DNA from: a virus
Virus record (IMG/VR): IMGVR_UViG_3300030118_006581
Location: 1 to 57,887 of that record
Direction: 5' to 3' (one strand)
DNA length: 57,887 nucleotides
Shown here: in pieces, positions 28,161 to 54,764 of the stretch
How positions within the stretch are numbered: position 1 is the first letter of the stretch
How the letters are laid out: each line of letters opens with the position of its first letter
The notes under the pieces: model-generated
What the model was told of the DNA's origin: nothing
The model's database searches: none
The model's input: the letters and a program-made list of their open reading frames with translations, nothing else
Position numbers and translations under genes: made by a program

Positions 28161-28164
28161 TATA

Positions 28165-29288: not shown

Positions 29289-29289
29289 A

Positions 29290-32961: not shown

Positions 32962-33385
32962 CTTCATATACGTGATCCACATCCGGCCTGGTTATCGCAT
33001 ATCTTACCCCTGGTTTATCTCCCACACACTTTATGTGATGCCAGACGCCACAAGGAACTACAATAATGTCATTCGTAGTAACAGTTCTTGTTCCTATACC
33101 ATCTATCCACCACTCCCAAGTTCCATCTAAAATAACCCAGTTCTCATCGGCGTCATGATGATAATGTTTTCTATTTCCTTCGCCTGGTTGTTGTTGAATT
33201 ACAACACCCCCAAACAATTCATTGTAAGCAATTCGTACAGCCCAAGACCCCATACCAAGATCTTTTCTTAATTCTTCTAGATTTACGGTTGAACAATTTT
33301 CATACTTTTTAAGTTCGGATACTGGTACACCGTCGTCTTTAAGGACACTTATAAGGTTACTATCTGATTTCTTTTTTTCACTCAT
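32954..33385 (-). CDS. Cupin-domain protein
   Basis: The protein carries a cupin barrel with the metal motif HYHHDADENWVILDG (residues about 74-88) and a second-motif segment DIIVVPCGVWHHIKC. Cupins beside sugar genes are often sugar epimerases, isomerases or binding proteins. I chose the ATG at 33385 (MSEKKKSD), 1 nt after the upstream stop; an ATG at 33400 would overlap that gene by 14 nt. The N-terminal 30 residues are polar. Function is not identifiable beyond fold. Confidence 0.83.
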   Translation of the reverse strand: MSEKKKSDSNLISVLKDDGVPVSELKKYENCSTVNLEELRKDLGMGSWAVRIAYNELFGGVVIQQQPGEGNRKHYHHDADENWVILDGTWEWWIDGIGTRTVTTNDIIVVPCGVWHHIKCVGDKPGVRYAITRPDVDHVYEDE

Positions 33386-33386
33386 A

Positions 33387-35285: not shown

Positions 35286-36265
35286 AATAAACCTTTTGTA
35301 CCATTTTCATCAAACCATTTGTCATACCACTCAATTGTTTTTGAGAGTCCCTCTTCCAAATTGACCACTGGCACATAAGAAGTTAAACTTTCTAACTTAG
35401 ATGTATCGGGACATCTTCTGTCCACGCTTCCCCTTGGGGCATCTCTAATATCATATTCATCATCGTTATTATACCAGAGGTTTACTTTTTTTGCAAGATC
35501 AATAATTTTTATTTCTTCCTTGTCGTTCCCAATGTGAAAAATGCCGCTCTCATTGCACTTAGATAATTCATAAGTTGCTTTTACTGCATCATCAATATAA
35601 CAAAAAGCTCTGGTCTGTTTATCACCAAATATCTTAAAAGGCATTTCATTATTTTTGGCTCTCAGGACAAATTGAGGTATTACGTGCTTGGTACCCATCC
35701 TTGGTCCATATATGTTGTGATACCTAATAATTTGATAATCTAATCCAAATTGCTTACTAAAACTGTTTAGAATAATTTCACAGGCCAACTTACTACCGCC
35801 GTATGAATATCTCTCATTCATAACATCTTCAATTGTACAATGAATTTTTTCATCAGTTGGCACCAAGCTTTGATCTCTCTGGATTGATCCAGCATAGACT
35901 TCTGAAGAGGATGTAAACACGAATTTAGTTTTAGATTCTTTATATTTCTCTAGCAATAACATCGTGCTTTTTATAGCAACTTCCATTACTGTATAAGGTA
36001 TTGTATAAAAATTTTCTGTTCCATTTATAGCCGCCAGATGAAATATTACATCATAGTCATCATCCAGTTTTTGAAGATCTTCAACCTTCGTAAGGTCAGC
36101 TTCGATAAACTTAGTGCCATCTATTTTTAAAATATCCTCTATGAAGCTATCAACCTGTCCTCTTTTGTTGTTGTCACATAGATGCGTCTCGTTACCTTGT
36201 TGGGCACAATAACGGGACAGATAAGACCCTATAAATCCACTGGCTCCCGTTACTAATATCTTCAT
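35282..36265 (-). CDS. NAD-dependent sugar-nucleotide epimerase/dehydratase
   Basis: An extended SDR with GASGFIG at residues 7-13, a TSSSEVY active-site segment near 118-124, and Y155-x-x-x-K159 (YGGSK). IYGPRMGTKHVIPQF and RAFCYIDD are typical of UDP-glucose 4-epimerase and UDP-glucuronate decarboxylase types. It needs NAD and acts on a nucleotide sugar. The UDP-sugar dehydrogenase gene begins directly upstream, which makes UDP-glucuronate a plausible substrate, but the sequence alone does not decide between epimerase, decarboxylase and dehydratase. Neighbours overlap by 1-4 nt. Confidence 0.88.
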   Translation of the reverse strand: MKILVTGASGFIGSYLSRYCAQQGNETHLCDNNKRGQVDSFIEDILKIDGTKFIEADLTKVEDLQKLDDDYDVIFHLAAINGTENFYTIPYTVMEVAIKSTMLLLEKYKESKTKFVFTSSSEVYAGSIQRDQSLVPTDEKIHCTIEDVMNERYSYGGSKLACEIILNSFSKQFGLDYQIIRYHNIYGPRMGTKHVIPQFVLRAKNNEMPFKIFGDKQTRAFCYIDDAVKATYELSKCNESGIFHIGNDKEEIKIIDLAKKVNLWYNNDDEYDIRDAPRGSVDRRCPDTSKLESLTSYVPVVNLEEGLSKTIEWYDKWFDENGTKGLL

Positions 36266-37059
36266 TATTTTCTCATCCCATCATATACAGTTACTTTATA
36301 TTTGCTATTCTCTTCTAAAATCATCTTAAAAAAACCAATATCAAGGTTTTTTTCCTCAACCAATTTTGATATGGCTAGAGTATCCTTGGGCAAACAAACT
36401 CCACCAAATCCTCTGAAATTGTCATTACACTGAAGGTATGAATCATTTATATGATCTCTTAGCACTAAGGAATTTTTAATGTCTGTATAAGAAGCGTCTA
36501 GTTCTTTGCAGACTTCATAAAAACTGTTTGCAAGAGTTATCAAAGTTGCATTGTAAATATTGTTGTAATATTTTACTAGTTCTGCCTCTGTCCTGGATAA
36601 TTTTCTAAACTGCGAAGGATATGATCCGTGGGCTTCTTTTATCTTTTCATAACATTCCTCACAATCAGTTCCGATTACGCACAAGTCGTGATTTTCAATA
36701 AAATCAATAACTGCACATCTTTCCCTCAAGAACTCAGGAACAAATGCTATTTTTAGCTGCGGGTATTTGTCCGCTAGTTTCTGTGTTGTACCAGGAGAAA
36801 CAGTAGATTTTATAACAACAATCCCAGAATAATTATTAGATTCTAGATTTACAATAGATTCCTCTACGATAGTAGTGTCACAAAAGCCATTCTCATCTGG
36901 GGGAGTGGGTACACAAATAAAACAGATATCACTGCCAAGAACATCTTCAAACTTTGACTCCTTTGCAGGATCGTAAAAGCTCATTTTATGCCCAAGTTCT
37001 AAAAAACCTGTATAAACAGCGTTGCCAACAACACCAAGTCCCAAAACTCCTATTTTCAT
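36265..37059 (-). CDS. Short UDP-glucose/GDP-mannose dehydrogenase-type enzyme
   Basis: The N-terminal NAD domain has GLGVVG at 7-12 and STVSPGTT near 85-92; E109 in FVPEF, K163 and N167 in LVKYYNN, and catalytic C222 within GFGGVCLPKD are all in place. Family members are about 390-450 residues; this one ends at 264, so the C-terminal UDP-binding domain is absent. Neighbours overlap at both ends, so this is a compact gene and not an obvious truncation. The nucleotide part may bind elsewhere or through dimerisation. If active it would oxidise a nucleotide sugar to a uronic acid. Confidence 0.85.
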   Translation of the reverse strand: MKIGVLGLGVVGNAVYTGFLELGHKMSFYDPAKESKFEDVLGSDICFICVPTPPDENGFCDTTIVEESIVNLESNNYSGIVVIKSTVSPGTTQKLADKYPQLKIAFVPEFLRERCAVIDFIENHDLCVIGTDCEECYEKIKEAHGSYPSQFRKLSRTEAELVKYYNNIYNATLITLANSFYEVCKELDASYTDIKNSLVLRDHINDSYLQCNDNFRGFGGVCLPKDTLAISKLVEEKNLDIGFFKMILEENSKYKVTVYDGMRK

Positions 37060-37646
37060 TTAAAAACCTCCATCTTTCTCAAATCAGGCCAGTCATCTAA
37101 AGTCCATTGCCTAGGTGTTGACTCTTTTGCCGCTGGTAGTTTTTCTAGTCCAAGTTTGGCTGTTTCTGGAGTCATATAATAATGGTATCCTACTGTGCTT
37201 ATATTTTGAGATGCCCAAGGGATGTCTGGCTCCCTACCATCATAAGACATTTTTTTCAATTTTTTATAGTCTTCCAAATTATCGCATAATATTACACCGC
37301 CACGACCTAAAGCTAGATGCTTTCTGAACTGAAAACTTACGCACATAAAAGTGTTTGGTATATAACTATCCTTTTTCCAAAGAACGGCAGCATCAATTAT
37401 ATTTGTGCCTCCAAGATAGTAATAATCAAGCCAATCTTCCTCTTTCCACTCAAGTTCTATATTTAACTTTTTGGATAAAAGAGGGATAGAAATATAAGTC
37501 TGAGTTGGGACAATAATCTTATCTACGTTTTTATATCGTAAGCAAAGTTCTATCCCGTGTGTACAGCAATCAACTGCCACAGCGTATGGAGCACCAAAAA
37601 AAGATGCTATCTCATTTTCAAATTCTTTTACTACCTCAAAACTCAT
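37056..37646 (-). CDS. Short DegT/DnrJ/EryC1-type sugar aminotransferase
   Basis: The protein keeps the central PLP part of DegT-family aminotransferases: VPTQTYIS near 46-53, D85 in the NIIDAAVLW segment, and catalytic Lys109 in SFQFRKHLALGRGG (104-117). Only 196 residues are present, against about 370 in the family, so the C-terminal small domain is missing. The start ATG at 37646 overlaps the upstream stop (ATGA); a GTG at 37655 is less likely. Because the reading frames on each side are coupled, this is a naturally short gene. It would add an amino group to a nucleotide-keto sugar if active. Confidence 0.82.
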   Translation of the reverse strand: MSFEVVKEFENEIASFFGAPYAVAVDCCTHGIELCLRYKNVDKIIVPTQTYISIPLLSKKLNIELEWKEEDWLDYYYLGGTNIIDAAVLWKKDSYIPNTFMCVSFQFRKHLALGRGGVILCDNLEDYKKLKKMSYDGREPDIPWASQNISTVGYHYYMTPETAKLGLEKLPAAKESTPRQWTLDDWPDLRKMEVFK

Positions 37647-38182
37647 TTTTTGCACTCCACGTTTAAACTCATCAAAGTTCCATTTTCCTTATCCATATGG
37701 GGTAAATATGCTTGAGAGTGATCATCGAATTTTGAATGGGAGGTATCTCTCCAGTCATATTTCTTAACCTCACTAAAGCCTGAATCCTCTAGCTCTCGCT
37801 TAAGCGATGGAAAATCATAAACTGTCCTATGATATATTGTCTCTTCGCCCATGGGCATCCTGCCATATAAAAGCCCAACAAATTTGTCGAGAGAATAACC
37901 CTCTTCCGTGTATAGTCTTGAAATTTCTGTAAAGTTAGGAACTGCGACTCTCAATGTGCCACCAGGTTTTAATATTCTTCTCCATTCACCAAGGACTGAT
38001 GGGATTTCCTGCCTATCAAAATATTCTACAACGTGTGAGGCATATATTAAATCGACTGTATTCTCACCAAATTGACTTAGATCAACAATGGATTCATAAT
38101 CTAGATGATCGTAATCTCCAGAATCTATATGAATCCATTCTTTTCCAAAATCTCTCCAGCCGCATCCCATATTTATTTTCAT
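37643..38182 (-). CDS. Class I SAM-dependent methyltransferase
   Basis: The start MKINMGCGWRDF holds motif I (NMGCGW, residues 4-9), followed by HIDSGDYDH (motif II) and the VDLIYASHVVEYF and WRRILKPGGTLRVAVPN segments typical of type 11/ubiquinone-like methyltransferases. It is 179 residues, a compact single domain. It overlaps the aminotransferase gene by 4 nt. N- or O-methylation of a cassette sugar is the likely job; the target is unknown. Confidence 0.87.
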   Translation of the reverse strand: MKINMGCGWRDFGKEWIHIDSGDYDHLDYESIVDLSQFGENTVDLIYASHVVEYFDRQEIPSVLGEWRRILKPGGTLRVAVPNFTEISRLYTEEGYSLDKFVGLLYGRMPMGEETIYHRTVYDFPSLKRELEDSGFSEVKKYDWRDTSHSKFDDHSQAYLPHMDKENGTLMSLNVECKK

Positions 38183-38595
38183 TATAAATACCTTTTATCC
38201 AGTGATTGACCTTCATAAGGTCCGGTCTTGTATTCATAGACAATCGTATCATCCTCAAGTATCTCATAAGTATGAGCGCCTTCAAGTGTAAAACTAGCAT
38301 CACCAGGTTTTAAGATAGGTGTTGCCAGGATTGTTTCGTTGTCTATGTCATACATATAACACTTAACACTGCCTTGTATTACAATCCAAGATTCTTGTGC
38401 TATTTGTTCTTTATATGTTCTTTCTTTTTTTATATGGTAATGTGGTTGAAAATTTTTACCTTGTTCAAGTTTCATAGTTGCACATTGAATGAATTGGTCT
38501 TCAGGAACTATATCTGTTCTACCATCCACATCCTCTAATCTATTAATCATATGAAGTAGGAGGTCTGGGTTTATCTTTGAATAGATCTTTAACAT
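38182..38595 (-). CDS. Cupin-like protein, 137 aa
   Basis: A single-domain cupin with a FQPHYHI metal-type motif near residues 49-55, a SWIVIQGSVKCYMYD strand pair, and PGDASFTLEGAHTYEI as motif 2 containing a second His. Similar proteins (WbuC-like) accompany O-antigen and polysaccharide genes, where their role is unclear. The ATG shares a base range with the stop of the GT42-like gene (7 nt overlap). Function beyond fold is unknown. Confidence 0.82.
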   Translation of the reverse strand: MLKIYSKINPDLLLHMINRLEDVDGRTDIVPEDQFIQCATMKLEQGKNFQPHYHIKKERTYKEQIAQESWIVIQGSVKCYMYDIDNETILATPILKPGDASFTLEGAHTYEILEDDTIVYEYKTGPYEGQSLDKRYL

Positions 38596-39284
38596 TTTAT
38601 CGCCTCCTCAATACTCATTTTTTTAAAACACTTTAGATTAGATATGGGGCTGCAATTTACCACTTCTATATCAGCGTGTGCAGCCCTATATGCAAACATA
38701 TTCCAAGTTGGCATATGAAATTTAATACCATCAGGAATATTATATTGATCACCTTTTTGTTGATAGTCATCAAACCAATAGTTCGGGTTCTTATCTGGTG
38801 TTTTATCCATAATCAGCCCAGGTCCGTCTTTTTTACTGCCGTCAACAAATTCAACATAGTTACAGTCTACACCCAAAAGGATAATTTTTTTATACCCCAT
38901 ACAAACAGCCGCCGAACAAGCGTTAGCACCACTATTACCATTATCGTGAAACTGAGTAAAACAATCTTCTGAATGATTCATCTTGTTGGTGCTACCATAC
39001 GGTAGCATATTTACAAATTGGAAATTATCTTTGTCACTTAAGTTCCTTATGTAAAAATGCTTTTTAAATTTACCTGAATCGATAAGATCAATGAAGCTTT
39101 GTTGGTGATTATCTGTTACACGATAATCAAAGCAGCCGTGATAGGTAGGCCACCAGTCTAAACGAGGATAGGCTCGATAGGCAGAATTTAATCCAAATGT
39201 GTCAATACCATCTAGCATAGAAAAATCAACATCCTTAAGGGATGGACCATTTCCCATAATAACTATCGTTTCACTCTTAGTCAT
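38589..39284 (-). CDS. GT42 sialyltransferase-like / DUF115-superfamily protein
   Basis: The protein begins with IVIMGNGPSLKDVDFSMLD, which closely resembles the nucleotide-binding start of Campylobacter Cst-II (GT42) and of DUF115/MptE-like proteins. A second conserved block, NSGANACSAAVCMGYKKIIL followed by LGVD (117-140), matches the block that binds CMP in those enzymes. GT42 enzymes transfer sialic acid from CMP-Neu5Ac. Length is 231 aa, slightly shorter than Cst-II. No membrane segment. Together with the GT29-like gene this suggests CMP-activated sugars are used here; the alternative is another DUF115-type glycosyltransferase. Confidence 0.75.
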   Translation of the reverse strand: MTKSETIVIMGNGPSLKDVDFSMLDGIDTFGLNSAYRAYPRLDWWPTYHGCFDYRVTDNHQQSFIDLIDSGKFKKHFYIRNLSDKDNFQFVNMLPYGSTNKMNHSEDCFTQFHDNGNSGANACSAAVCMGYKKIILLGVDCNYVEFVDGSKKDGPGLIMDKTPDKNPNYWFDDYQQKGDQYNIPDGIKFHMPTWNMFAYRAAHADIEVVNCSPISNLKCFKKMSIEEAIKC

Positions 39285-40128
39285 AAAAACTCCAAAATGT
39301 AGAACACCTTGTGTTCATATGTTCTCGACAAGATTCAGCACTATTAGCCCAAGATTCATATCTGTGTTGGACGTTTTCATTTAATATAGTTTCACACCCT
39401 AGCATTTGCGCTTCCATAACAAGCCTAGGACAAGTATCTGCACCATCAGGTAAAAATATAAGACCCTTTGAAGTAGACAATTTTATTAGTAATTCGTGAT
39501 AAGGTAAACCAGCAACTACTTCTGCCTCTAATGAGTTATCTTGCGCATACTTGACACATTTTTCATAACCCTTAATCCAAGAGTTTGTTCTAACAATAAG
39601 ATATTTGTCGTTTTTTTCATTGTCTCTTATCGAGTCAATAAATCTTAAATCACCCTTTGAAAAAACAGAATTTAAAGTTTCTGTATTTTCTTCTTTGATT
39701 GTCTTAACCCTCTGTAAGAAGATATTCTTTTGCGCATCGCTCATAAACCAGATTTTTTTTGCATACCCATAAAAGGCTAAATTTATCTTGTTCTCTTTTA
39801 TATCTGCACAATCACACTCCTGACCTGTTTGAATTCTGTGAAGATCCAAAGATCTGAATTTACAGAATTTGTAGTCGTACTCGACTATAGAATAATTTAC
39901 ATTTTTAATCAAATGAAGTTTTAACCTGTAATCAAGCGAAACAAAATTTAATACAACCCAGTGAGCTTCTTTATATTGGTTGATTACAGAGCTTGTAAGC
40001 TCAGCACATCTTATCTTTATTATGTTTTTATTATTGGGTCTCCCTTGGATAATAGCCTCCGAGGTAAGCTCCGCTCCACCAACATAATCTTCAGCAAAAG
40101 CATCAGCTAAGAATATCATAAGACTCAT
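39277..40128 (-). CDS. Glycosyltransferase, GT4/GT-B-like, 283 aa
   Basis: The start IFLADAFAEDYVGGAELTSEA matches the N-terminal donor-side loop of group 1 glycosyltransferases. A conserved C-terminal block, LIFLPDGADTCPRLVMEAQMLGCETI, is the usual E-x7-E region, with Asp in place of the first Glu. It is short for the family (about 350-400). It overlaps neighbours by 4-8 nt. Cytoplasmic; donor unknown. Confidence 0.83.
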   Translation of the reverse strand: MSLMIFLADAFAEDYVGGAELTSEAIIQGRPNNKNIIKIRCAELTSSVINQYKEAHWVVLNFVSLDYRLKLHLIKNVNYSIVEYDYKFCKFRSLDLHRIQTGQECDCADIKENKINLAFYGYAKKIWFMSDAQKNIFLQRVKTIKEENTETLNSVFSKGDLRFIDSIRDNEKNDKYLIVRTNSWIKGYEKCVKYAQDNSLEAEVVAGLPYHELLIKLSTSKGLIFLPDGADTCPRLVMEAQMLGCETILNENVQHRYESWANSAESCREHMNTRCSTFWSFYD

Positions 40129-41417
40129 ATTAAATCATCCAAAAGTGAATCCACTTCATCCTCATATTCTTGAACTGTTTTTAAATACGGAGAAAGTTCT
40201 TCGTTATTGAAATCCTTATACATACCCTTAATAACTTTTAGATTGTTTTTTTCTCTAAGATAATTTGAAAGATTTTTAGAATCTTCTAGGAACGATTCTT
40301 TATTCCTTCGGATAAAATTAAGAGACTTCTTAAAGGAGTCTTCTTTTGGATAAGCCCAAATACAAGACTCAGTAATTAAACCAGGCATCAAATGTTGTTG
40401 TTCTACAGGTTTTAAGTCATAAGCTACTTTGATAAAGTGGCTTTTAAGCTTAGTATTTCCAGCCCTGTTTTTACTGGGGGCTCTAAGAAAATCCAAATGG
40501 CCAGACCAGTTTGTTGCTATAATTGGAATACCGTTACAAGCTGCTCTAAAGATAGGTATACCAAAGCCTTCGCCATGTGTGGCTGTAACATAACAGTCAA
40601 TATAGTCTGGATTATATAATGACTCCATCTCTTGTTCTGTTAAACTACCGTGAACGAAATAAACCTTACACTTTCTACTAGGCGCTATAGCTTGAAGAGT
40701 TGCTTCAATATCCTGCTTTGTTGCATAGAAATCCATAGTACTATTATTATGCATATGTGTTTTTACAATAAGTCCTACTTCTTCATCATCTTTAAAGTTC
40801 TCTATAAACCATTTTAATGTCATCCTAAAGTTTTTTCTTGGTGCCATTTGAAGAACAGTAAGAAAGTTAAACTTTGTTTTAATATTCATACCTTTATAGA
40901 TGTCTATTTGTTCCACAGTATCATCGTGTCCAAATGGTATAACTGTGATTGGACACGAAATCCCAACACCGTTTTCATCTTTTGTATTTTTAAGGTTTTC
41001 TTTTGCGTGATTGGATACAACCAAGATATGCTTCATAGTGTTACATTTAGCAACCCATTCCGATGGTGCAAATGTTGTTTCTAAAGCGGCCGTGACACCT
41101 ATGTCGTGTGGGGACATAGGCTGGAATTCATTAGGTGGTCTCACTTGGTAAGTGGCAGTAAATAAGTCATTTATATTAATATTACCTTGAGCATCCTGTC
41201 GAGATACAAAAAGCCGATTTGTTTTGTCAATAAGATTTTTATACTTTTCGTAATATTTTGAACTACGACTAGTTGCAGCCCACTGAGTGTCTTGGACATA
41301 GACTTCTATTGTGTCTTGTAGTTCCAACAGTGAATCCAGTAATGTTCTTGCGTGTTCACTGTAACCTGATAGGTTACAAACGGGACCAACCACTAAGATT
41401 TTAGGTTTATTAATCAT
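40125..41417 (-). CDS. Glycosyltransferase family 4
   Basis: A full-length GT-B enzyme of 430 residues: the N-terminal VVGPVCNLSGYSEHARTLL loop, a FLTVLQMAPRKNFRMTLKWF linker segment, and the donor-binding HGEGFGIPIFRAACNGIPII block. The second Glu of the usual E-x7-E motif is an Arg here, so catalysis may differ or donor choice may be unusual. Stop and start overlap neighbours by 4 nt. It would transfer a sugar from a nucleotide donor with retention in the usual family mechanism. Confidence 0.88.
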   Translation of the reverse strand: MINKPKILVVGPVCNLSGYSEHARTLLDSLLELQDTIEVYVQDTQWAATSRSSKYYEKYKNLIDKTNRLFVSRQDAQGNININDLFTATYQVRPPNEFQPMSPHDIGVTAALETTFAPSEWVAKCNTMKHILVVSNHAKENLKNTKDENGVGISCPITVIPFGHDDTVEQIDIYKGMNIKTKFNFLTVLQMAPRKNFRMTLKWFIENFKDDEEVGLIVKTHMHNNSTMDFYATKQDIEATLQAIAPSRKCKVYFVHGSLTEQEMESLYNPDYIDCYVTATHGEGFGIPIFRAACNGIPIIATNWSGHLDFLRAPSKNRAGNTKLKSHFIKVAYDLKPVEQQHLMPGLITESCIWAYPKEDSFKKSLNFIRRNKESFLEDSKNLSNYLREKNNLKVIKGMYKDFNNEELSPYLKTVQEYEDEVDSLLDDLI

Positions 41418-42673
41418 AATTCTACTGTCCTAATATTATTGTATTTCTTTCTACTATCCCAAGATCCTCTCTCCTCATGAACCCGCAACATCAAATCAAC
41501 CCACTGTTTCTTAAAAACATCAAAATTGTAGTTATTCTTAACGTGTTGTTGTCCAAGTTCGCCAAGTTCTTTTAATTGTTGGGGAGTTTTTTTATACATT
41601 TCTAGAAGAGCGTTAATAAAATCGTCTTTATTGATTCTATCCTCGTAAATGTATGGCACCTGCTGCGATCCAATAACCGCCTTAGAACTTGGTTCAATTC
41701 CAATTCCAAACCATTTCTCTCCATCTGTGACTTGTTCCTGCAAACCGCCTGTCATATTAACAATAATTGGAGTGCCGCAAGATAGAGACTCAAGAGTTGC
41801 CAACCCGAACCCCTCTGCATCTGAAATATTAACTGTGCAATCAGCCATTGTGTAAAGCGCTGCTAATTGTTCAGCCTGAAGTTTATTGGTGGAAAGAAAA
41901 ATCTCTCCGTCATTAAACCCTAAATGAGAAGCAAGGTAATGCAATGGTTGCCCATGAGGATCGGTAGGGTCAGTATGCATAAACAAACAAACCTTTGATC
42001 GATCTACATCCTCCCTCTCTAGAAATTCCTTGAACCAATACACCAAACTACCAGACTGTTTTCTTCTAGCGTTCCGATTATTCCAGAAGAATATGAATTT
42101 ATCTTTTAGTGTTGGATTTATTTTATATAGGTCGTCTATTTCTTTCGAGGGTCTTGGATAGAAATGATCTGAATTTACTGCGTGTGGAACATATTCTTCC
42201 TCCACTTCTGGGCATACATTCTGAACTATATCACTTGTGACTTTCGAAATACTTGCGACCACATCATTAGCATCATAATATCTCTTATTGAATTTTGGGT
42301 ATGGATAATTATCCCAAACGTGATAATAAACCATAGGTAGTTTATCTCGAATCTGATCGTCTATTGACCATAACCATTCATAAAAACGTGGGTCGGTCAT
42401 AAAATATAGGATATCTGGTTTTCGATCTCTGATGAACTGGCTAATCATTTGAGGATTACCATAACCATCAACTGGGAATATTTCCCAAAATCCTGGATAT
42501 CCTTCGATTCTTTTAGGTTCATAGTTTTGATGCTTGATCGCTCCTCCAAGAGAGATCACATTAAACTTGCCACTATTAAGAAGAGCTTCTATAACATATT
42601 TTGTCTGGGTTCCCACTCCAGAAGGCAACAAAGGGTGGTCACTTATGGTCATAACCGTAATTTTTTTATCCAA
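41414..42673 (-). CDS. Glycosyltransferase family 4, TTG start
   Basis: A GT-B enzyme of 419 residues with HPLLPSGVGTQTKYV in the N-terminal donor loop, FIFFWNNRNARRKQSG in the linker and an intact E-x7-E in DAEGFGLATLESLSCG. The start is TTG at 42673 with GAGGTA well spaced upstream and overlapping the stop of the nuclease gene; the next in-frame ATG is 7 codons inside. It is the first gene of the sugar cassette in transcription order. Acceptor and donor unknown. Confidence 0.88.
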   Translation of the reverse strand: MDKKITVMTISDHPLLPSGVGTQTKYVIEALLNSGKFNVISLGGAIKHQNYEPKRIEGYPGFWEIFPVDGYGNPQMISQFIRDRKPDILYFMTDPRFYEWLWSIDDQIRDKLPMVYYHVWDNYPYPKFNKRYYDANDVVASISKVTSDIVQNVCPEVEEEYVPHAVNSDHFYPRPSKEIDDLYKINPTLKDKFIFFWNNRNARRKQSGSLVYWFKEFLEREDVDRSKVCLFMHTDPTDPHGQPLHYLASHLGFNDGEIFLSTNKLQAEQLAALYTMADCTVNISDAEGFGLATLESLSCGTPIIVNMTGGLQEQVTDGEKWFGIGIEPSSKAVIGSQQVPYIYEDRINKDDFINALLEMYKKTPQQLKELGELGQQHVKNNYNFDVFKKQWVDLMLRVHEERGSWDSRKKYNNIRTVEL

Positions 42674-43537: not shown

Positions 43538-44197
43538 TTAGTTGTTGACGAGTTCATCGATCTTGTTATATAGTTCCGGGCTAATTTTCTTTAGTTTTTG
43601 TTTACTTCCCAGAAAATACTGCTCAAATCCAGTAGCAAAGTATTCACGCAATGAAACAGAACTATAGGGTCGAATAAACATCCCAGAAGTAATCATTCTG
43701 AGTAGGTTTTTACCGACTCGCTTATAAAGAAACTGATCAAAATCCTCATCGAACTTAAGGTTTTTAAAATCATACTCCTGTGTCCAATATCCTTCTGACC
43801 TCAGTTCAAATTCCAACTCATATCTTTTTTTGAGAAACTCTTTTTTTATTTTTTGATCACCATAAATTTGTTCCGGGTATAGAACTTCTGCGTGGTGTGC
43901 AAATTCGTGAACAATATCATCTATCAAATCAGCAGCATTATCTTGATCTTGAGTTATATAAAAAACACCGTCTTTATACAGGGCATTAGCTTCACGATCA
44001 TCAAAAATTTCTTGGTGACCTATCTGCACTCCCTTAAGTCCACTAAATAATTTAGATGGTATTAGCTTCTCTACAGAGCGAAAAATAGCTTGGGCATCAA
44101 CGTTATCTGGTAGTTGATCTTTTTGATAAACAGGGACATTCCCAAACCGAAAATGCCTAGTGGTATTTTTTACCTTCTCAAAAACATATTCTCTCAT
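43538..44197 (-). CDS. Zinc metallopeptidase-like protein (HExxH)
   Basis: Residues 97-101 read HEFAH, a zincin motif, within IVHEFAHHAEVLYPE. A downstream REYFATGFEQYF segment (184-195) supplies candidate third-ligand glutamates E185 and E192, the spacing seen in the lethal-factor-like (ATLF) group of metallopeptidases. There is no signal peptide, so it acts in the cytoplasm or virion. It overlaps the PIN-PhoH gene by 4 nt and is followed by the nuclease gene after 15 nt. Target unknown; it could cleave a host or phage protein. Confidence 0.8.
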   Translation of the reverse strand: MREYVFEKVKNTTRHFRFGNVPVYQKDQLPDNVDAQAIFRSVEKLIPSKLFSGLKGVQIGHQEIFDDREANALYKDGVFYITQDQDNAADLIDDIVHEFAHHAEVLYPEQIYGDQKIKKEFLKKRYELEFELRSEGYWTQEYDFKNLKFDEDFDQFLYKRVGKNLLRMITSGMFIRPYSSVSLREYFATGFEQYFLGSKQKLKKISPELYNKIDELVNN

Positions 44198-45498
44198 AAT
44201 ATCTCCGAAGCAAGGGTTGCCAATTGTGATCTCTCACCTTTAGTTAGTGTGATATGTCCAGCAATGTCATAATTTTTAAATTTTTCTACTGCATGAGTCA
44301 AACCATTTGATACTGAATCTACATAGGAATTGTCTATTTGTTGTATATCACCTGTAAGAACTAACTTTGTCCCATGTCCTACCCTTGTTATTATAGTCTT
44401 TAATTCGTGTGCTGTCAAGTTTTGAGCCTCATCAACAATCATAAAAGCATTTGCGATAGAACGACCTCGAATATAAGTCATTGCCTCAATTTCAATAACT
44501 CCCTGTTCTACCTGCATATCTAGAGCAGTGCGGTCACCAAAGAGATGCTCCAAATTATCTCGAATTGGAGCGATCCACGGCAACATCTTCTCCTCTAAAG
44601 TCCCAGGCAGAAATCCAATATCTCTGCCCATTGGTTGCACTGGACGGGTAATTATAAGTTTGTCATAACCACCAGAAGCACCAGTAGTGTTAATGACTTG
44701 TTCCAATGCACAAGCTGTAGCTAACAATGTTTTACCAGTGCCAGCCGGACCTGTCAAGGACATTATATGAATATTTTTATCAAATAATAAATCCATAGCA
44801 TATTGTTGCTCTTTATTTCTTGCTGAGAGACCCCATATGTTTTTGTATTTATTTACTTTTTTTAAAGGTTTATTCTCTCCTTCATAGCGGCAAATCGCTG
44901 ACTTATTTGTTCCTTCGTTTTTAAGAAGAAGGAATTGATTGGGAAACAGTCTCTTCTTCTGCTCCGGGAGGACAAATGGCTCTCCTGTATAAAATCTATC
45001 AATAAGTGAGAAGTCCACTTCCAATTCTTGAGTACCAGTGAATAAATTTTCTACAGAATTAATAACCTTTTGTGGTTGATAGTCAAAACACTCTATACCA
45101 TAAGCATCACACTTGACTCTCATATTGAGATCCCGAGACACTACAGCGATCTCGTGACCTTTCTTTTTTAATCGGAGGGCGACGGCAATAATTTTATTAT
45201 CTGAGTCATCCTCTTTCATCCCAGCGGGTAGGAAATTTGCATCATAATGAGCCGCAAAGACTTTACCCTTGCCCCTCCCAAGCGCAACTCCTTCCATAAG
45301 ACTACCTTTTGAGCGCAACGCATCCAATACCCTGTTCATAGTTCGGGCATTAAGACCGGCAGTATCTTGACGGTGTTTATGTTTATCTATCTCATCTAAT
45401 ACAATTGTTGGGATTGCAATATTATTTTTCCCAAATGCCAATATGGAACCTGCCTCTGTAAGATACACATTTGTATCTAAAATGATGGTTTTCTTCAT
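44194..45498 (-). CDS. phoH: PIN-PhoH protein (RNase plus PhoH ATPase)
   Basis: Residues 1-130 form a PIN RNase domain with acidic residues D8, E36, D98/D100 and D123. Residues 220-430 form the PhoH NTPase with Walker A GPAGTGKT at 250-257, Walker B FMIVDEAQ at 352-359 and the ITRPV and GDIQQ segments. PIN-PhoH (PhoH2) proteins unwind and cut RNA. PhoH genes are frequent in marine phages. I prefer the ATG at 45498, which has a GGGGGA Shine-Dalgarno, over the TTG at 45510. It is the first protein gene after the tmRNA terminator, so it needs its own promoter or readthrough. Confidence 0.93.
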   Translation of the reverse strand: MKKTIILDTNVYLTEAGSILAFGKNNIAIPTIVLDEIDKHKHRQDTAGLNARTMNRVLDALRSKGSLMEGVALGRGKGKVFAAHYDANFLPAGMKEDDSDNKIIAVALRLKKKGHEIAVVSRDLNMRVKCDAYGIECFDYQPQKVINSVENLFTGTQELEVDFSLIDRFYTGEPFVLPEQKKRLFPNQFLLLKNEGTNKSAICRYEGENKPLKKVNKYKNIWGLSARNKEQQYAMDLLFDKNIHIMSLTGPAGTGKTLLATACALEQVINTTGASGGYDKLIITRPVQPMGRDIGFLPGTLEEKMLPWIAPIRDNLEHLFGDRTALDMQVEQGVIEIEAMTYIRGRSIANAFMIVDEAQNLTAHELKTIITRVGHGTKLVLTGDIQQIDNSYVDSVSNGLTHAVEKFKNYDIAGHITLTKGERSQLATLASEIL

Positions 45499-45545
45499 AT
45501 ATTCCCCCAAATAAGTGGGTTTATATAATTAGTTCTCAGGGTAAT

Positions 45546-45568
45546 AAAAAAGCCGCCCGAAGGCGGCT
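45546..45568 (-). terminator. Intrinsic terminator of the tmRNA gene
   Basis: On the minus strand AGCCGCC-TTCG-GGCGGCT forms a 7-bp GC-rich stem closed by a UUCG loop and is followed by a run of six T. The stem begins at the last base before the encoded CCA end of the tmRNA, so the precursor has a short 3' tail to be trimmed. Confidence 0.93.
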
Positions 45569-45891
45569 GGTGGAGGTAGGGAGAATCGAACTCCCGTCTT
45601 GTCTAGTTCCATAAAGAGGTCATTCACAAGGTTAGGTCTGTTTTTTTCGTCAGACAGCCCACTTGACTAGATCATTTTATTGTGGCTAAAATAATCAAAA
45701 GCACTTACAAAGACACAGTACGGCTTTCTGTTTTTTGGCTGCCGTCGCCTCAAGTCAAGTCAGGTTATTAAGCTGCTTGTGCTAGTTGAAAATCGTCGTT
45801 TGCGATTAGAAGTTAAGCGTTTTTAGTGAGCCACGCTTCCCTCACCCTTGCACCTTTTTTACTTTCCTATCAATCGATACCGGTTACCCCC
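45568..45891 (-). ncRNA. ssrA: tmRNA (transfer-messenger RNA)
   Basis: A complete 324-nt tmRNA. The tRNA-like end is clear: 5' GGGGGTA pairs with 3' TACCTCC, the T arm is GGGAG-TTCGATT-CTCCC, and an ACCA end is encoded. The acceptor stem contains G3-U70, the alanine identity pair. The tag reading frame is at 45803 to 45771 on the minus strand and encodes ANDDFQLAQAA followed by two TAA stops, preceded by the usual bases before the GCA resume codon. A-rich, pseudoknot-like stems follow, for example GTCTG/CAGAC at 45636-45655. tmRNA with SmpB rescues stalled ribosomes and tags the nascent chain; smpB was not seen in the window, so the host protein would be used. Confidence 0.96.
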
Positions 45892-45902
45892 ATTCACTTA
45901 AT

Positions 45903-45931
45903 GTTATATAATACAACGAAGAACTTGTCAA
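45903..45931 (-). promoter_or_regulatory. Sigma70-type promoter of the tmRNA
   Basis: On the minus strand TTGACA (45931-45926) is separated by 17 nt from TATAAC (45908-45903). The -35 is perfect and the -10 differs at one base. Transcription would start near 45896, about 5 nt before the mature 5' end at 45891, leaving a short leader for RNase P. Confidence 0.75.
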
Positions 45932-46078: not shown

Positions 46079-46855
46079 TTAAAGATCTAATTCCATATCA
46101 ACCCCTTGTTCAACATCATCTGTAGGGTCTTCTTTTTCCTCTTCATATTCTGGAGTAGAGACGGGAGACAAATCGTTCTGAAGTTCGTCTTCGAATTTAT
46201 CGAAATATAAAAGTAGATTCGTAACAAGATAGTCATAAAAAACATCCTTGTCTTTTTCATCTGCTAACATATCATAAGCATCAACAATTTGTTTTTCTAC
46301 CCTTTTATATGAAGCTTGAGCAAAGTTTCTACCAGTTTCATTCTGATCGTCTAGTTTTATGAAGTCATCTTCATCTGAATCGCCATCGCCATCAACATCA
46401 ATGAATTCACCTTCTATTGATTGTGCTTCTTTTCCGTCATCTTGTGGATCAAGATCTATGGATATTTTTTCTAACAGTGTATCTCTGTCAATTTCATACT
46501 CTATATCTTCAGTTTGTTTTTCACCCTGTGTGTTAGCTTCTATGGGTCTTAAGGAGTTTTCAACTGCGTGTACAATATGATTTTTAAAAGATTCTCTTTG
46601 TTCCTCTGAGGTGGTCAGCATTTTGTAATCATCTTGGAGTGTTGGAATAATATTCTGCAAAAGATCAGCAAGAACATTAATACCTGTACTACGACTAGCT
46701 TCTTCTGTACCGGTCTCAGCTTCAATCAATTTACGAACAACTTTTCTTATCTTTTCCTCAGCAAGTCTCTGCTGGTCCAGCTTTAAAGCTATTCTTTTAC
46801 GGATATGCTCCCTGATAAGTTCTTCAGCGATTAGTTGTTCTCGGTCAATAGTCAT
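46079..46855 (-). CDS. Acidic protein with EF-hand-like loop, 258 aa
   Basis: The N-terminal 100 residues are helical and charged (QQRLAEEKIRKVVRKLIEAE). A calcium-loop-like segment DVDGDGDSDEDD lies at residues 153-164. The C-terminus is very acidic and low in complexity. No family is recognised. The gene follows the 1129-residue ligase-like gene by 10 nt and ends just before the noncoding tmRNA region. A scaffold-like or virion role is possible, but the sequence does not show it. Confidence 0.8.
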   Translation of the reverse strand: MTIDREQLIAEELIREHIRKRIALKLDQQRLAEEKIRKVVRKLIEAETGTEEASRSTGINVLADLLQNIIPTLQDDYKMLTTSEEQRESFKNHIVHAVENSLRPIEANTQGEKQTEDIEYEIDRDTLLEKISIDLDPQDDGKEAQSIEGEFIDVDGDGDSDEDDFIKLDDQNETGRNFAQASYKRVEKQIVDAYDMLADEKDKDVFYDYLVTNLLLYFDKFEDELQNDLSPVSTPEYEEEKEDPTDDVEQGVDMELDL

Positions 46856-46865
46856 AGTATTATAA

Positions 46866-49800
46866 TTATCTCCGTCTTTGACGTTTTGCTCTTCTAACTT
46901 TTGGACGGCTAGTTTTAGAGCGGGTTTTGTTAGGGTAAACAGGTTTCATTCCCAAGGGTAGAGAGTAGCCACCAACACCCCCAGCAGACATCTCATCAAT
47001 GGTATCGTCTATCACTGAATTCAGTCTTTCAGTTTGAGGAATTAAAGAATTCCACAGAGCCTCTCCGTCAATTGATGGCGGAGCATAAGATAAGAAAGTT
47101 TCTTTATCTCTCTCAGCAATTGCTTTTCTCATATCACGAGCACTATAAACAATACCATCCTTGGATTGGACAGGATCTTCAACGATGTCTTCTACATTTA
47201 CACCGGGGTTATGACGCTCAGCATACGATTGCGCACGATCAAAGCGAGTATCCCCTACATCCTTACTACTCTTAACTAAAAGAACCGTATCTCCATCGGA
47301 GGCTGACTCAGGATCAGCAACAAATTCATAGACTGCCTGAACTGGACTGCGGTAGTCTGCAATTTTTGCAGTAATGTTTGGTTCACCGTTCTCAAGGTAT
47401 TCTTCCCAGATACGCAAACTTTGCGCATTGCTTACTTCTGGATAATCAACGGGAGAAATTAAAACAATCACCTCATCAACATCAGACCGTTTAGCAATTT
47501 TATTCACATAATCAAAGTGACCACGATGTGGTGGTTTAAACTTACCAGGGAATAGAGCTATACGCTTACCTTCTTTTTCAGTAATAACTTGAGTGGTGTT
47601 ATTTAGTGATTCGTTTCTTTGGGCTGGTGCTGATTTATCTTTAGCAACTTGAGTTTTCATCTCTTGTCCGATAATTTCACTATTTTTAATAGCTCCATCA
47701 CCAGCAGTAATAGCATCACTCCTATCACCGTAAGTGAAGTATCCATCTATGTCATCAGATAAATTTTTTGTAGCCTTGAAAATTTCTTCAATAGAACCCT
47801 CAAGAACGCCCATATAGTTTTCAGCAACAGCAACAATTCTATCAGTTGAAACGGGTAAATTACCAATAATCTTAAACCCTGATATATCTGAAGATATTCC
47901 TGTACCTTTTTTAGTATCGGGGACGATCTCTGTAGCAGAAATACTCCAGCTTCTGCCCTTTGCGCTCTGTTCCTCTGTTAATAAATCAGTTTTCCAAAGT
48001 TCTCTTTGTTCTTCAATAGTTAATCTAACAAGTCCCTCTTCTGCGAGTTCAGGATTATTTTCAACAGGCTGTGTCTCTTCTTCGGGTTGGGTAGCTTGAG
48101 TATCTTGTTGTTTTAAACGAGCTTCTTTTTCTTTCTTTGCCTTCTCATACTTAGCAGCCATGGCATCCCTTTTTTGGGCGCTATATCCGTATGTATTTTT
48201 AAGAAGCTCATACCTAACGGGCCATTCAGCAGCAGCATAGAGCTTCTTTAATTCTTCCACTTGTTTTACGACGTTATTTTTGTATTTCAGTAATCTTCTA
48301 TCGTATTTAGCGAGTAGATCTGCTGATAATTTTTTATCTTTTTTACCAGGGTAAACAAGGGGTTTATCACCGGAACCAAAAAGTTCATATTTGGCTTTTT
48401 CTTGTTTGCCGGAAGTTAGTAACTCTATAACATTGTCTCGTGTGATAGCAAATTGCTGAATTTGAATTTCATCGCCTAATTTTCTTGTGACAATGTAGAG
48501 CATCTCTGGATAAGTATTTAAAGCTTCTACAAGGTTTGTAAAACTTCCCTCTATTTTTCCACCTTCTTTTAATAATTTTAGACTAACAGGGATTCCCGCA
48601 ACACCTTCTATAGTTTTGAACGCTATAATATCCTCAATGGGTTTACTACCGTCATCAGGGTCTACTACCTGTTCTCCAGAGAACATGGCTGCTAGAAATC
48701 CTTCAAGCACAAAACCGGCTGACGACTCAGTGAAGCTATTAATCACCGCAGATAAAGACTCTAGAAAAATAAGAGTACTAATAATTCTTCGTGGCGATCT
48801 CATATTAGTATCAAAATTAGCTCTATCAATTATATCGTCAAATTTAGCTTGAATATTAGCACCACCTGAAATTGTTGCAAAAATCTTCTCAACCTGTTTT
48901 CTTTCCATGGATTGAGGCTTGCCCCAAGACTCATTAGGGGAGAACTTAGGAAGATTTAAAATAAATTGTCTTGCTCTTTCTTTCTTAATATTATTTTCTT
49001 TCTCTGTTATGATTGGTTTGTCAACAACTAGAGATTCTTTTGTACTTCTTTTTAGGTTCCCGTAGCGGAACATCCCAAGTATCTGATTTAGCGGAGCAAA
49101 GTTGCCCGCAAACTTGTATGTGTGTCCATTATAATCAAAGACCACCGCCTCTACTGGCGTAGTAATCGTAGAAAAGTCCTTGATTTTGTTGAGGTGACGC
49201 TGCATAACAGCCATGGCTTCGGGATTCTCAGTACCAACTGAAGTGATTTCTTTTACAGCGTTCGCAAGCTCATTCTTGAGACGCATTACTTCTTTGTTAT
49301 TATCTTCGATAAAGATACTTCTAAGACCTTTTAACAGTTCAACTGTAAAGTCGTGGATAGCTAACTCTAATGGTTCAACAGATTGTTGAAGCAATACTTT
49401 ACTACCCGCTATTATTGAGTTAAGGTCTTGCAAATCTTGAGGATTCAAGCCTTTCTTGAGTGCTCGCAGTCCTATGTTTCCGGGAAGCTTAAGAATATAA
49501 TTTATTATCTCTTCTTTTAAATTTCTAGGTAATTCAGAATCAATACCATTCATTAACCTTTTGTACATATAATCAAGGATAGTGGAGTCATCATTTAATC
49601 CCTCTTTCCTCATCTCATTATTAATGCGATTAAAAGCTTGATTTAGGGCTTGTCCATCATCTTCAATTTTTTTAATGTCTACTAAAGCTCTTCGTGCTAA
49701 ATTAAAATCATCGCTGTGAAGTTGGTTCTCCATTCTCTCCATAGCATTATCAAGAGTTTCAAGAGTTCCTCTGGGAATTGGTGATTGATCTCCAGTTTCA

Positions 49801-50255
49801 CGATCAAACACAAAGTGACCAACGTCGTGTATTTTTAGTGTTTTATCATCGTAGAGGATAACATTTGCATTACCTGGATCCATAACCTCAGCATTGTACC
49901 AAATATTTGTGTTGGGTCCAAAGATTCTCTCTTTCTCTTCGTCTGATAACGCCTCAACAGCTTTTTCAAAAGTAGCAAAGCCGCCACTAAAAGCCTTTTC
50001 TAACCCTCCACGACCAGCAAACTTTTGTGCAAGCCCTGCGGCATCTAAACCGCCAGACTTTAAATTTCCTTTGTTACGGGCTCCCTTGGCTTTTCCCTCG
50101 GGAATAGAATAAGAAAGAAATAGATTTTGACCGTCTACTTTTTCTTCAGCAGTCAGTTCACCATTAGCAGCAGCTTCAAGGATCTCCTTCATTTCACCAA
50201 ATGTTAAATCTCTATTTTCATAGAGATGATCCATGTGACCAGCTACGCCACCCAT
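46866..50255 (-). CDS. 1129-aa protein: KxDG ligase-like domain, unknown middle, HxGH nucleotidyltransferase
   Basis: Residue K39 begins a KVDG motif within EEKVDGQNLFLSYS, the lysine that carries AMP in DNA and RNA ligases; NIWYNAEVMDP and VVFDYNGHTYKFAGNF resemble later motifs of that superfamily. A middle module of about 200 residues (GFVLEGFLAAMFSG ... PVSLKLLKEGGKIEGSFTNLV) is unassigned. Residues about 895-1090 form an HxGH nucleotidyltransferase (FPGKFKPPHRGHFDYV, with later SKDGIVYSARDMRKAI), like NMN adenylyltransferase or cytidylyltransferases. I recall similar GHM...ENRDL starts in marine T4-like phages. Possible roles are nucleic-acid repair or NAD metabolism; the fusion's purpose is unknown. 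Confidence 0.85.
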   Translation of the reverse strand: MGGVAGHMDHLYENRDLTFGEMKEILEAAANGELTAEEKVDGQNLFLSYSIPEGKAKGARNKGNLKSGGLDAAGLAQKFAGRGGLEKAFSGGFATFEKAVEALSDEEKERIFGPNTNIWYNAEVMDPGNANVILYDDKTLKIHDVGHFVFDRETGDQSPIPRGTLETLDNAMERMENQLHSDDFNLARRALVDIKKIEDDGQALNQAFNRINNEMRKEGLNDDSTILDYMYKRLMNGIDSELPRNLKEEIINYILKLPGNIGLRALKKGLNPQDLQDLNSIIAGSKVLLQQSVEPLELAIHDFTVELLKGLRSIFIEDNNKEVMRLKNELANAVKEITSVGTENPEAMAVMQRHLNKIKDFSTITTPVEAVVFDYNGHTYKFAGNFAPLNQILGMFRYGNLKRSTKESLVVDKPIITEKENNIKKERARQFILNLPKFSPNESWGKPQSMERKQVEKIFATISGGANIQAKFDDIIDRANFDTNMRSPRRIISTLIFLESLSAVINSFTESSAGFVLEGFLAAMFSGEQVVDPDDGSKPIEDIIAFKTIEGVAGIPVSLKLLKEGGKIEGSFTNLVEALNTYPEMLYIVTRKLGDEIQIQQFAITRDNVIELLTSGKQEKAKYELFGSGDKPLVYPGKKDKKLSADLLAKYDRRLLKYKNNVVKQVEELKKLYAAAEWPVRYELLKNTYGYSAQKRDAMAAKYEKAKKEKEARLKQQDTQATQPEEETQPVENNPELAEEGLVRLTIEEQRELWKTDLLTEEQSAKGRSWSISATEIVPDTKKGTGISSDISGFKIIGNLPVSTDRIVAVAENYMGVLEGSIEEIFKATKNLSDDIDGYFTYGDRSDAITAGDGAIKNSEIIGQEMKTQVAKDKSAPAQRNESLNNTTQVITEKEGKRIALFPGKFKPPHRGHFDYVNKIAKRSDVDEVIVLISPVDYPEVSNAQSLRIWEEYLENGEPNITAKIADYRSPVQAVYEFVADPESASDGDTVLLVKSSKDVGDTRFDRAQSYAERHNPGVNVEDIVEDPVQSKDGIVYSARDMRKAIAERDKETFLSYAPPSIDGEALWNSLIPQTERLNSVIDDTIDEMSAGGVGGYSLPLGMKPVYPNKTRSKTSRPKVRRAKRQRRR

Positions 50256-53043: not shown

Positions 53044-53517
53044 ATGACAAGAGTATTAACTAATAGATGGGTGCTCTTGTGTGTTCTTTGTGTGACAATT
53101 GCAGTCTCCTCGTTTTTAATATATAAAAACAATTTTCAGCCAGAATTAGTATTATCAAAAGACATAACTTATTATCTACCTGGACAAAGAGATAATTGTA
53201 AATGGATATTACAGGCAGATAATAATTTAAGAAACATAGCTGGCGAAACAACTGAAATTAGAATAGGTATACCCGAAGTTCAAGCGGGCGGTTATCTAAG
53301 CGGCCGCATAGAAGTGGGACAACATAATAATCTGATGCTTGCTTTTGTCCCCCCAGGGACACAAAAGAACAAAGTTCCTGTTATTCTAACAGCAGACTAT
53401 TCTGAACAAGAATTGCCGATCAATTTTTTAAGGTTTAGGTGGGTACAAAGCAGCACAATAACTATTCTTATATTTTCCTCCGAAGAAATGTGTATCGCCT
53501 CTAGGGGTAAAAAATAA
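53044..53517 (+). CDS. Membrane-anchored protein, 157 aa
   Basis: The N-terminal segment MTRVLTNRWVLLCVLCVTIA leads a single transmembrane anchor (about residues 9-27). The rest is polar beta-rich domain with two Cys, presumably periplasmic. I chose the ATG at 53044 because TAGGAG lies 6 nt upstream; a longer start at 52993 overlaps the previous gene. The stop overlaps the next ATG (TAATG), so it is coupled to the vWA lipoprotein. Function unknown; it may be a partner of that lipoprotein. Confidence 0.8.
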   Translation: MTRVLTNRWVLLCVLCVTIAVSSFLIYKNNFQPELVLSKDITYYLPGQRDNCKWILQADNNLRNIAGETTEIRIGIPEVQAGGYLSGRIEVGQHNNLMLAFVPPGTQKNKVPVILTADYSEQELPINFLRFRWVQSSTITILIFSSEEMCIASRGKK

Positions 53518-54764
53518 TGAGATTCTTACCCTTACTGTTTGCTCTTAGTGCTATCTCTGGGTGTGAAGAAGATAGGCTTGTCAAGATTGAGTGCATTCCT
53601 GGTGAAAAACTTGTATGTGATGAGCACGGTCAAGACTTCCCTGCGGCTGATCCTATTGATATCGCACAAAGAGCAGGTCAGTGTTCTTACGGTTTAAAAA
53701 CTTGCACAACAAGTGGCTGGTCAGAATGTGTGGGAGCACGAGGACCTTCTGAAGAAATCTGTGATGGCATAGACAATGATTGTGATGCTGCCATTGATGA
53801 AACCTACCCAGAAATACATCAGCTTTGTGGGTTTGAAGAAAACGTTGATTATGGGGTTGGTATTTGTACACCTGGTGTTATGAAATGTGACAACGGGGGT
53901 TTATATTGTGATGGTCACGTTGGACCTACTGAAGAAACGTGTGATGGGGTTGATAATAATTGTAATGGAACTGTTGACGAAAATATTCCAAACTCAACTG
54001 CTGTTGTTTGTTACGAAGGTCCAGACGGAACTTTAGGCATTGGAGAATGTCGAGCAGGAATTAGGTACTGTACTGACGGCAACTTTGGTGGACCTTGTGA
54101 TAATCAAACTTTGCCAACCTTAGAAAGATGTGACGATCTGGATAATGATTGTGACGGTGAGGTTGATGAAGGTTTTGATAATCGTGGTGTAGATTTAGTT
54201 TTTGTTCTCGATATATCCGGATCCTTCAGGGATGAGATAGACTCAATGATTCAAGGCATAACTCCCCTCTTAGACGACCCGATAACGAGCACATTTCGCT
54301 TTGGACTAGTTGTTGTAGGTGCTAGGGGCGGTGATGACTTAAGACCGCAAAATTACCTCGCAAGAATGGTGTCTGATTTTGTCTATGCTGACGAGTTTCT
54401 TGCTGTGATAGAGGCCGGCAGAATGATACCAAGTGCTGGACAAGAGCCAACAATTGATACAATGTACTGGTCAATGAATACTTATCCATTTTCGTGGAGA
54501 CCAGATGCACAAAAAGTTATTATAACAATGACTGACGAAGAAGCACAGACAATGAACGAGCACCCTATGTCTTGTTTGGAGATAGGTGAACTATCAAATA
54601 CTTTAGGTTTCGAACTATTTGTATTTGCCCTTGAACAACACCATAACACATTTATTAACTGTGTAAGAGGTGAAAGAGACCGACTGTACACACCTACAGC
54701 AAATTCAGAAACTGTATTTTTACAGATCAGAGCTATATTCGAAGACCTTTGTATCGGTCGTTAA
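53517..54764 (+). CDS. Lipoprotein with MopE-type metal-binding repeats and von Willebrand A domain
   Basis: A lipoprotein signal ends at Cys16 (AISGC). Three MopE-type motifs follow, at about residues 80-95, 140-155 and 204-218, each with an E-x-CDG-x-DNDCDG core (NDCDAAIDE, NNCNGTVDE, NDCDGEVDE), which in this family may bind metal. Residues 226-415 form a vWA domain with the MIDAS motif D232-x-S-G-S in VFVLDISGSF, used to hold a metal and a protein ligand. Such lipoproteins are common in Myxococcota and related bacteria. Here it is in a phage, on the strand opposite all neighbours except its own island, so it is likely an acquired gene. It ends exactly where a minus-strand gene ends. Confidence 0.9.
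   Translation: MRFLPLLFALSAISGCEEDRLVKIECIPGEKLVCDEHGQDFPAADPIDIAQRAGQCSYGLKTCTTSGWSECVGARGPSEEICDGIDNDCDAAIDETYPEIHQLCGFEENVDYGVGICTPGVMKCDNGGLYCDGHVGPTEETCDGVDNNCNGTVDENIPNSTAVVCYEGPDGTLGIGECRAGIRYCTDGNFGGPCDNQTLPTLERCDDLDNDCDGEVDEGFDNRGVDLVFVLDISGSFRDEIDSMIQGITPLLDDPITSTFRFGLVVVGARGGDDLRPQNYLARMVSDFVYADEFLAVIEAGRMIPSAGQEPTIDTMYWSMNTYPFSWRPDAQKVIITMTDEEAQTMNEHPMSCLEIGELSNTLGFELFVFALEQHHNTFINCVRGERDRLYTPTANSETVFLQIRAIFEDLCIGR

Follow-up and report, generated by a model that had tools for sequence, protein, structure and literature searches.

Phage-borne tmRNA genes (ssrA) are already known: tmRNA was present in 402 of 18,146 phage genomes, which yielded 133 unique genes (PMC9004378), it is encoded by huge phages, some of which also have SmpB (PMC7162821), and further examples are found in Mycobacterium phages Bxz1, Cali, Catera, and Wildcat and in Bacillus phage G (PMC4131195). 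An earlier note on the DNA described here, which regarded tmRNA as normally a host gene, understates these cases. The marine T4-like myoviruses Methylophilales phage Melnitz and Pelagibacter phage Mosig have ssrA genes that are two-piece and permuted and carry a glutamine riboswitch (PMC9004378), and mycobacteriophage DS6A has a tRNA-like domain (TLD) without a tag domain (PMC4131195). As in the known phage cases, the gene that we describe is an entire phage-encoded ssrA that presumably works through the trans-translation machinery of the host, and as in Melnitz and Mosig the phage is a T4-like myovirus. However, the gene is one-piece, has a complete tag domain, and gives no riboswitch match in Rfam; it also differs from known phage tmRNAs in being universal within an uncultured T4-like clade and in having a tag block that is exchanged.

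The window, meaning the whole stretch of DNA analyzed (57,887 b), is an entire IMG/VR record, linear and a fragment. The sequence is viral, being an IMG/VR contig with baseplate (wedge protein), PhoH2, and exonuclease genes, alongside which it encodes glycosyltransferases and nucleotide-sugar genes; it is a fragment of a T4-like myovirus. A separate 190-kb relative with the same tmRNA locus encodes a T4-type terminase, portal, and sheath, and further a DNA polymerase, a DnaB-like helicase, ribonucleotide reductase, and GroEL. At the nucleotide level nothing in 50,697 phage records matches the window tmRNA, and the best protein matches to isolates (PhoH2 39%, polymerase 32%, and terminase 45% identity) indicate different hosts; by these sequence comparisons no cultured phage is closely related to the clade, which is T4-like and probably lytic.

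Several other genes of the window deserve mention. A long block at 26488-42673 contains nucleotide-sugar, sugar-isomerase, sialyltransferase-like, and glycosyltransferase genes and varies between relatives, a trypsin-like serine protease (PF13365; 51711-52643) has a hydrophobic, probably signal-like N-terminus, and a small DnaJ-domain protein (PF00226; 55036-55650) is present, here in a phage. The protein at 53517-54764 combines a MopE-type metal-binding motif (PF11617) with a VWA domain; this combination is typical of Myxococcota-like bacteria and hints at a possible Myxococcota-like host.

Anatomy and structural conservation of the tmRNA gene

ARAGORN called a single RNA gene in the window, a minus-strand tmRNA at 45568-45891 whose tag, ANDDFQLAQAA, is followed by two stops, and RF00023 matches the same interval over its full length (model positions 1-374) with 88.8 bits (E=3.4e-33), above the curated cut-off of 47 bits. 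Both results bear out the earlier note, which had proposed a complete tmRNA gene with this tag, and the G3-U70 pair, T arm, and encoded ACCA end that it described are all seen in the raw sequence, where the gene runs from GGGGGTA to TACCTCC-A-CCA, giving G3:U70, a discriminator A, and an encoded CCA, with a 5-bp T stem (GGGAG/CTCCC). The sequence CCTCCACCA at the acceptor 3' end is present in 46/46 homologues.

Table 1. Features of the tmRNA locus, in window coordinates
Feature	Coordinates	Strand	Evidence
ssrA, one-piece tmRNA, 324 nt including encoded CCA	45568..45891	minus	ARAGORN, RF00023, covariation
5' acceptor-stem strand GGGGGUA, G3 at 45889	45885..45891	minus	Raw sequence
3' acceptor-stem strand UACCUCC, discriminator A, encoded CCA	45568..45578	minus	Raw sequence
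T arm GGGAG-UUCGAUU-CUCCC	45579..45595	minus	Rfam alignment; 3/5 pairs with compensatory changes
Tag frame ANDDFQLAQAA-stop-stop	45765..45803	minus	ARAGORN; translation; frame kept in 48/49 family members
Exchangeable tag block (approximate)	45730..45814	minus	Mosaics of L062, L056, L057; PHI p=0.001
Sigma-70-type promoter TTGACA-17-TATAAC	45903..45931	minus	Raw sequence; recurrence upstream of homologues
Intrinsic terminator AGCCGCC-TTCG-GGCGGCT, then T6/T-rich tail	45551..45568	minus	Abuts CCA end
PhoH2-type PIN-PhoH helicase/nuclease	44194..45510	minus	phrog_2765 6e-109; PF02562 and PF13638; synteny
258-aa protein, no known family, directly upstream of tmRNA in clade	46079..46855	minus	Synteny, alignment
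1129-aa protein, C-terminal nucleotidyltransferase (NMNAT/cytidylyltransferase-like) domain	46866..50255	minus	phrog_395 3e-6; weak NCBIfam NadD-like match

The gene resembles one-piece bacterial tmRNAs (RF00023) in having a TLD with G3:U70 and CCA but no anticodon arm (replaced by a long P2 in the Rfam alignment), PK1, an Ala resume codon, a short Ala-Ala-ending tag, H5 around the stop codon, and PK2. The tag codons, GCA-AAC-GAC-GAT-TTT-CAA-CTA-GCA-CAA-GCA-GCT-TAA-TAA, place the Ala resume codon first, Ala-Ala at the end, and the stop in the H5 loop. The gene is unlike the bacterial genes in its length of 324 nt, in its Rfam scores (82-96 bits across the clade), and in its -QAA tag end. A two-piece (permuted) tmRNA is ruled out, as the gene is colinear with the one-piece model, and a chance match is excluded by recurrence of the gene, with compensatory base changes, in ∼48 other contigs. 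By those sequence criteria that could be checked, the window gene is a working tmRNA.

Covariation was measured over 54 base pairs, including those of PK1 and PK2, in 38 distinct homologues. Among the resulting cells (54 pairs x 38 homologues) 97% are paired, and the number of pairs with two-sided compensatory changes is 21, compared with 10.8 in shuffles; 109 cells have two-sided changes, versus 31 in shuffles. None of 500 shuffles reached the observed covariation, and the signal is lost when the pairing partners are slid along. G3:U70 is invariant (38/38), the innermost acceptor pair switches from A-U to G-C in four sequences, and the T stem and inner P2 pairs are 100% paired in the 38 homologues. 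The two stems of PK1, which lies upstream of the resume codon, are 98.9-100% paired and so nearly invariant that they offer no measure of covariation; PK2 is backed by covariation, and two further downstream helices covary. PK1 and the TLD are the most conserved portions of the phage tmRNA, and RF00023 scores are above the cut-off in all 22 relatives. We conclude that the tmRNA structure is under selection.

The promoter sits ∼12 nt upstream of the tmRNA 5' end, and TTGACA with a TATA-like -10 is found upstream of most homologues; a promoter scanner missed the window copy because it demands T as the last -10 base. The GCCGCC-loop-GGCGGC-T terminator is kept among relatives, with changes in the stem. 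Of the promoters and terminator claimed earlier, the terminator (one, and strong) stands, but the plural "promoters" does not, with a single good one seen.

Conservation at one locus across the clade

A degenerate search with the exact window tag found 14 more viral contigs, all with tmRNAs above the Rfam cut-off. To avoid selecting on the tag, we used PhoH2 as the query for relatives. At 48 loci (L024-L071) PhoH2 is ≥67% identical to that of the window, and a full tmRNA lies directly upstream in 45 of these; two of the remaining three are cut inside the tmRNA by the contig end, and L066 ends before the site. Where PhoH2 is ≤57% identical, none of 32 loci has a tmRNA at that place. A scan using only the PK1 sequence yielded 48 contigs, practically the set already found, with one addition. 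Gene-by-gene comparison of loci shows one order, kept as far as each contig extends (nucleotidyltransferase protein, 258-aa protein, tmRNA, PhoH2, 219-aa protein, exonuclease, glycosyltransferases), with PhoH2 always directly downstream of the tmRNA; protein identities at these loci are mostly 40-98%, and most tmRNAs are 85-95% identical. The tmRNA is conserved clade-wide at one locus, and the earlier argument that its preservation in a phage implies selection is upheld by universality in the clade, intact tag frames, and strong covariation.

Two neighbors have features of their own. The 258-aa protein, which is modeled at low confidence as helical and has an acidic tail, was not found within 2.5 kb of PhoH2 in the relatives lacking the tmRNA; we considered it as an SmpB-like protein or adaptor and dropped the idea, since the model is all-helical and of low confidence and hence not SmpB-like. 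The 1129-aa protein has an N-terminal EKVDGQN...RNKG stretch that resembles nucleotidyltransferase/ligase motif I, and its version in relatives is shorter (∼660 aa).

Tag variants and exchange of the tag block

The 11-codon frame, with its Ala start and Ala-Ala-stop end, is intact in 48 of 49 family members, with synonymous changes present, and the terminal Ala-Ala is kept in every intact tag of the clade. The ending is -LAQAA in 18 of 48 contigs and the window (19/49), -MEMAA or -LEMAA in 19 of the 48 contigs, and -LALAA in 10 (ANDDFQLALAA in four, ANNNAELALAA in six). In one contig (L059/L243; 2116-2442 in L059) GCT-TAA comes straight after the resume codon of an otherwise conserved gene, so that the tag has only two residues (AA-stop); this tag is a singleton in IMG/VR, and its sequence suggests that the tag may have been dispensable at least once.

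How unusual -QAA is depends on the comparison. There is no exact match to ANDxFxLA[L/Q]AA in 84,980 species genomes, searched with a pattern that misses the Leu codons CTC and CTT, and a broader scan of the same genomes found at least 117 bacterial tags of similar shape; among the matches listed, the endings are -LAA, -MAA, -YAA, -AAA, -VAA, and -IAA, and none is -QAA. The Q is polar, unlike the tags of sampled bacteria, and it seems to be rare or absent in such bacterial tags, among the matches listed. The tag that the earlier note called unusual is so relative to the bacterial tags scanned, but not within its own clade, where it has one of the two commonest endings; -QAA is one of a few interchangeable clade versions rather than an idiosyncrasy. 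The further suggestion of redirection to a different protease is unsupported. In PMC7652416 the terminal Ala-Ala carboxylate is described as the key ClpX contact, and changing the antepenultimate Leu of the Escherichia coli tag (citing Flynn 2001) as raising the ClpXP KM only modestly; on that account, and with Ala-Ala kept in every intact tag, -LAQAA would be expected still to be a ClpXP signal.

The tag codons lie within a block of ∼90 nt. It begins slightly 5' of the resume codon, takes in the tag and H5 with its loop, and stops at the invariant AAACAGAAAG; the sequences that border it, PK1 and AAACAGAAAG, hardly vary across the clade. Its limits in the window are approximate, having been transferred from alignment columns about 80-167. 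Because the tmRNA by itself is too short to give a tree of firm topology, recombination was assessed by the PHI test and by triplets. L062, L048, and L056 have a common central block, but 5' and 3' of it L062 and L056 retain the sequence of their own relatives. In L062, 12 consecutive donor-type sites lie between 2 and 18 parent-type sites, a contiguity with a chance probability of 9e-8 (0.004 after multiplying by all triplets), and the PHI test with 36 sequences gives p=0.001, which is the floor of 1000 permutations. Some triplets (L029, L034) lack a local signal, as there the donor was matched by the entire gene and not by the block alone. The nearest neighbor is of the same tag class for 25 of 36 sequences by the flanks and for 32 of 36 by the non-coding part of the block, and the PhoH2 tree calls for at least 14 tag-class changes. 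Almost identical phages have different tags; by PhoH2, L062 (-LALAA) is sister to L065/L070 (-LAQAA), as L067 is to L068/L069 and L056 to L060.

In H5 the antepenultimate tag codon (Q, L, or M) pairs with a partner that covaries with it (pair 123-142: AU 22, GC 13, CG 3), which is a structural reason for the block to move as a whole. A chimaeric assembly is an unlikely source of the mosaics, since a read is longer than the exchanged block, which recurs in three different samples (metagenome assemblies). We conclude that the tag block, together with its paired H5 strand, has been repeatedly exchanged between phages, giving the -QAA, -LAA, and -MAA ends. No report of tag-block exchange within a phage tmRNA was found in the open-licence papers searched, and the exchange appears to be new, phage tmRNA itself being already known.

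Proposed function and alternative explanations

SmpB (PF01668) was found in none of 23 possibly incomplete records (22 related contigs, including ones of 146, 175, 179, and 191 kb, and the window) in a search whose positive controls were detected in 10 bacteria, and no smpB lies elsewhere in the window, itself a linear genome fragment; in this the clade differs from the phage tmRNA-SmpB pairs. Neither SspB nor full-length ClpX was found, and host factors would thus be relied upon. We consider it probable that this is a functional phage ssrA that acts in ribosome rescue and tagging through host factors. The tmRNA would be transcribed from its own sigma-70-type promoter and trimmed, charged with alanine by host AlaRS via G3:U70, and bound by host EF-Tu and presumably host SmpB. 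It would then enter ribosomes stalled on broken mRNAs, and decoding would pass to the tag frame and terminate at UAA. This would release the ribosome and add ANDDFQLAQAA to the protein fragment, which host ClpX could pass to ClpP, with or without an adaptor reading ANDDF. The likely benefit is that ribosomes and amino acids stay available when mRNA is cut during infection; the earlier proposal that a phage tmRNA keeps ribosomes free is accordingly supported as probable, given the universality of the gene in the clade, the intact frames, and the covariation.

A ClpP-family protease is encoded in 11/11 clade contigs of ≥97 kb, and we considered it as a partner of the tmRNA; this was dropped, as one is also present in 7/8 relatives without tmRNA. 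These are stand-alone ClpP-family (S14) proteases of 200-250 aa (L224:13253-13855 [G013], L231, L232, L233, L234, and L235), and in the ClpP-like proteases of the clade the Ser and His motifs are conserved. Type A lies a few kilobases from a phage GroEL gene and adjoins an SLT-domain protein, and type B (G007, G020) is near a lysis-like gene. A T4-type prohead protease is also present in three of the largest contigs, and the ClpP-like enzyme is probably not the sole capsid protease.

What the exchange of tags achieves can be read in several ways. We infer that it tunes the degron to the ClpX or adaptors of different hosts, and we put forward, tentatively, the stronger proposal that the block is traded by recombination and that phages switch between -LAQAA, -LALAA, and -MEMAA to match or evade the ClpX/adaptor specificity of their hosts; if true, the proteolysis tag would be a phage-host battleground. 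It is conceivable, although doubtful, that the tag instead copies that of the infected host, with segments taken from host ssrA, tag switches reflecting host switches, and -QAA coming from an unsampled lineage. Retention of the bacterial 11-residue ANDxxxLAxAA layout (ANDNVELALAA in Myxococcus, ANDDVELAYAA in Mariprofundus, ANDNFELALAA in Geothrix) is consistent with copying, as are tag classes that are fixed and discrete, with no continuum. However, the exchanged blocks resemble those of other clade phages and not bacteria, and the bacterial tmRNAs compared resemble the phage gene only over ∼30 nt in the TLD or ∼45 nt surrounding the tag; also against copying are the lack of an ANDxFxLA[L/Q]AA match in the 84,980 species genomes (CTC/CTT Leu missed) and of any match in a tmRNA BLAST against 195 Myxococcota genomes, run without a positive control.

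It is unlikely that only ribosome rescue matters, with a nearly neutral tag whose variants drift and hitchhike with recombination. Such neutrality would accommodate the two-residue tag of L059/L243 and the greater conservation of PK1 and the TLD, but an uninterrupted 11-codon frame with terminal Ala-Ala in 48/49 members, few endings, and synonymous changes in the tag codons all argue against it, and L059 is a singleton in IMG/VR. We think it very improbable that the RNA is a decoy titrating host SmpB or alanine, as suggested for the TLD-only molecule of DS6A: there is that precedent (discussed in PMC4131195) and no phage SmpB was found, but a decoy requires the TLD alone, and this RNA retains, with covariation, the tag frame, H5, PK1, and PK2 as well. 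Prophages integrate in ssrA and prophage ssrA fragments are known (discussed in PMC9004378), which raises the notion of a functionless attachment-site remnant or captured host fragment; we reject this as barely credible, because the gene is complete, with its own promoter and terminator, occupies the same locus between the same two genes in all clade members, and belongs to a T4-like, probably lytic clade, with no integrase among the scanned window genes.

Phage tmRNAs have mostly been reported singly, genome by genome, as curiosities. Here, a widespread clade of uncultured phages has the tmRNA as a fixed gene under structural constraint, in which the degron-coding block evolves through exchange. 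Natural variants with -QAA, -LAA, -MAA, and AA-stop ends on the same RNA body are a ready comparative set, which could show whether the phage needs the tag or ribosome rescue alone, and which also bears on how tightly ClpX specificity constrains natural tags.
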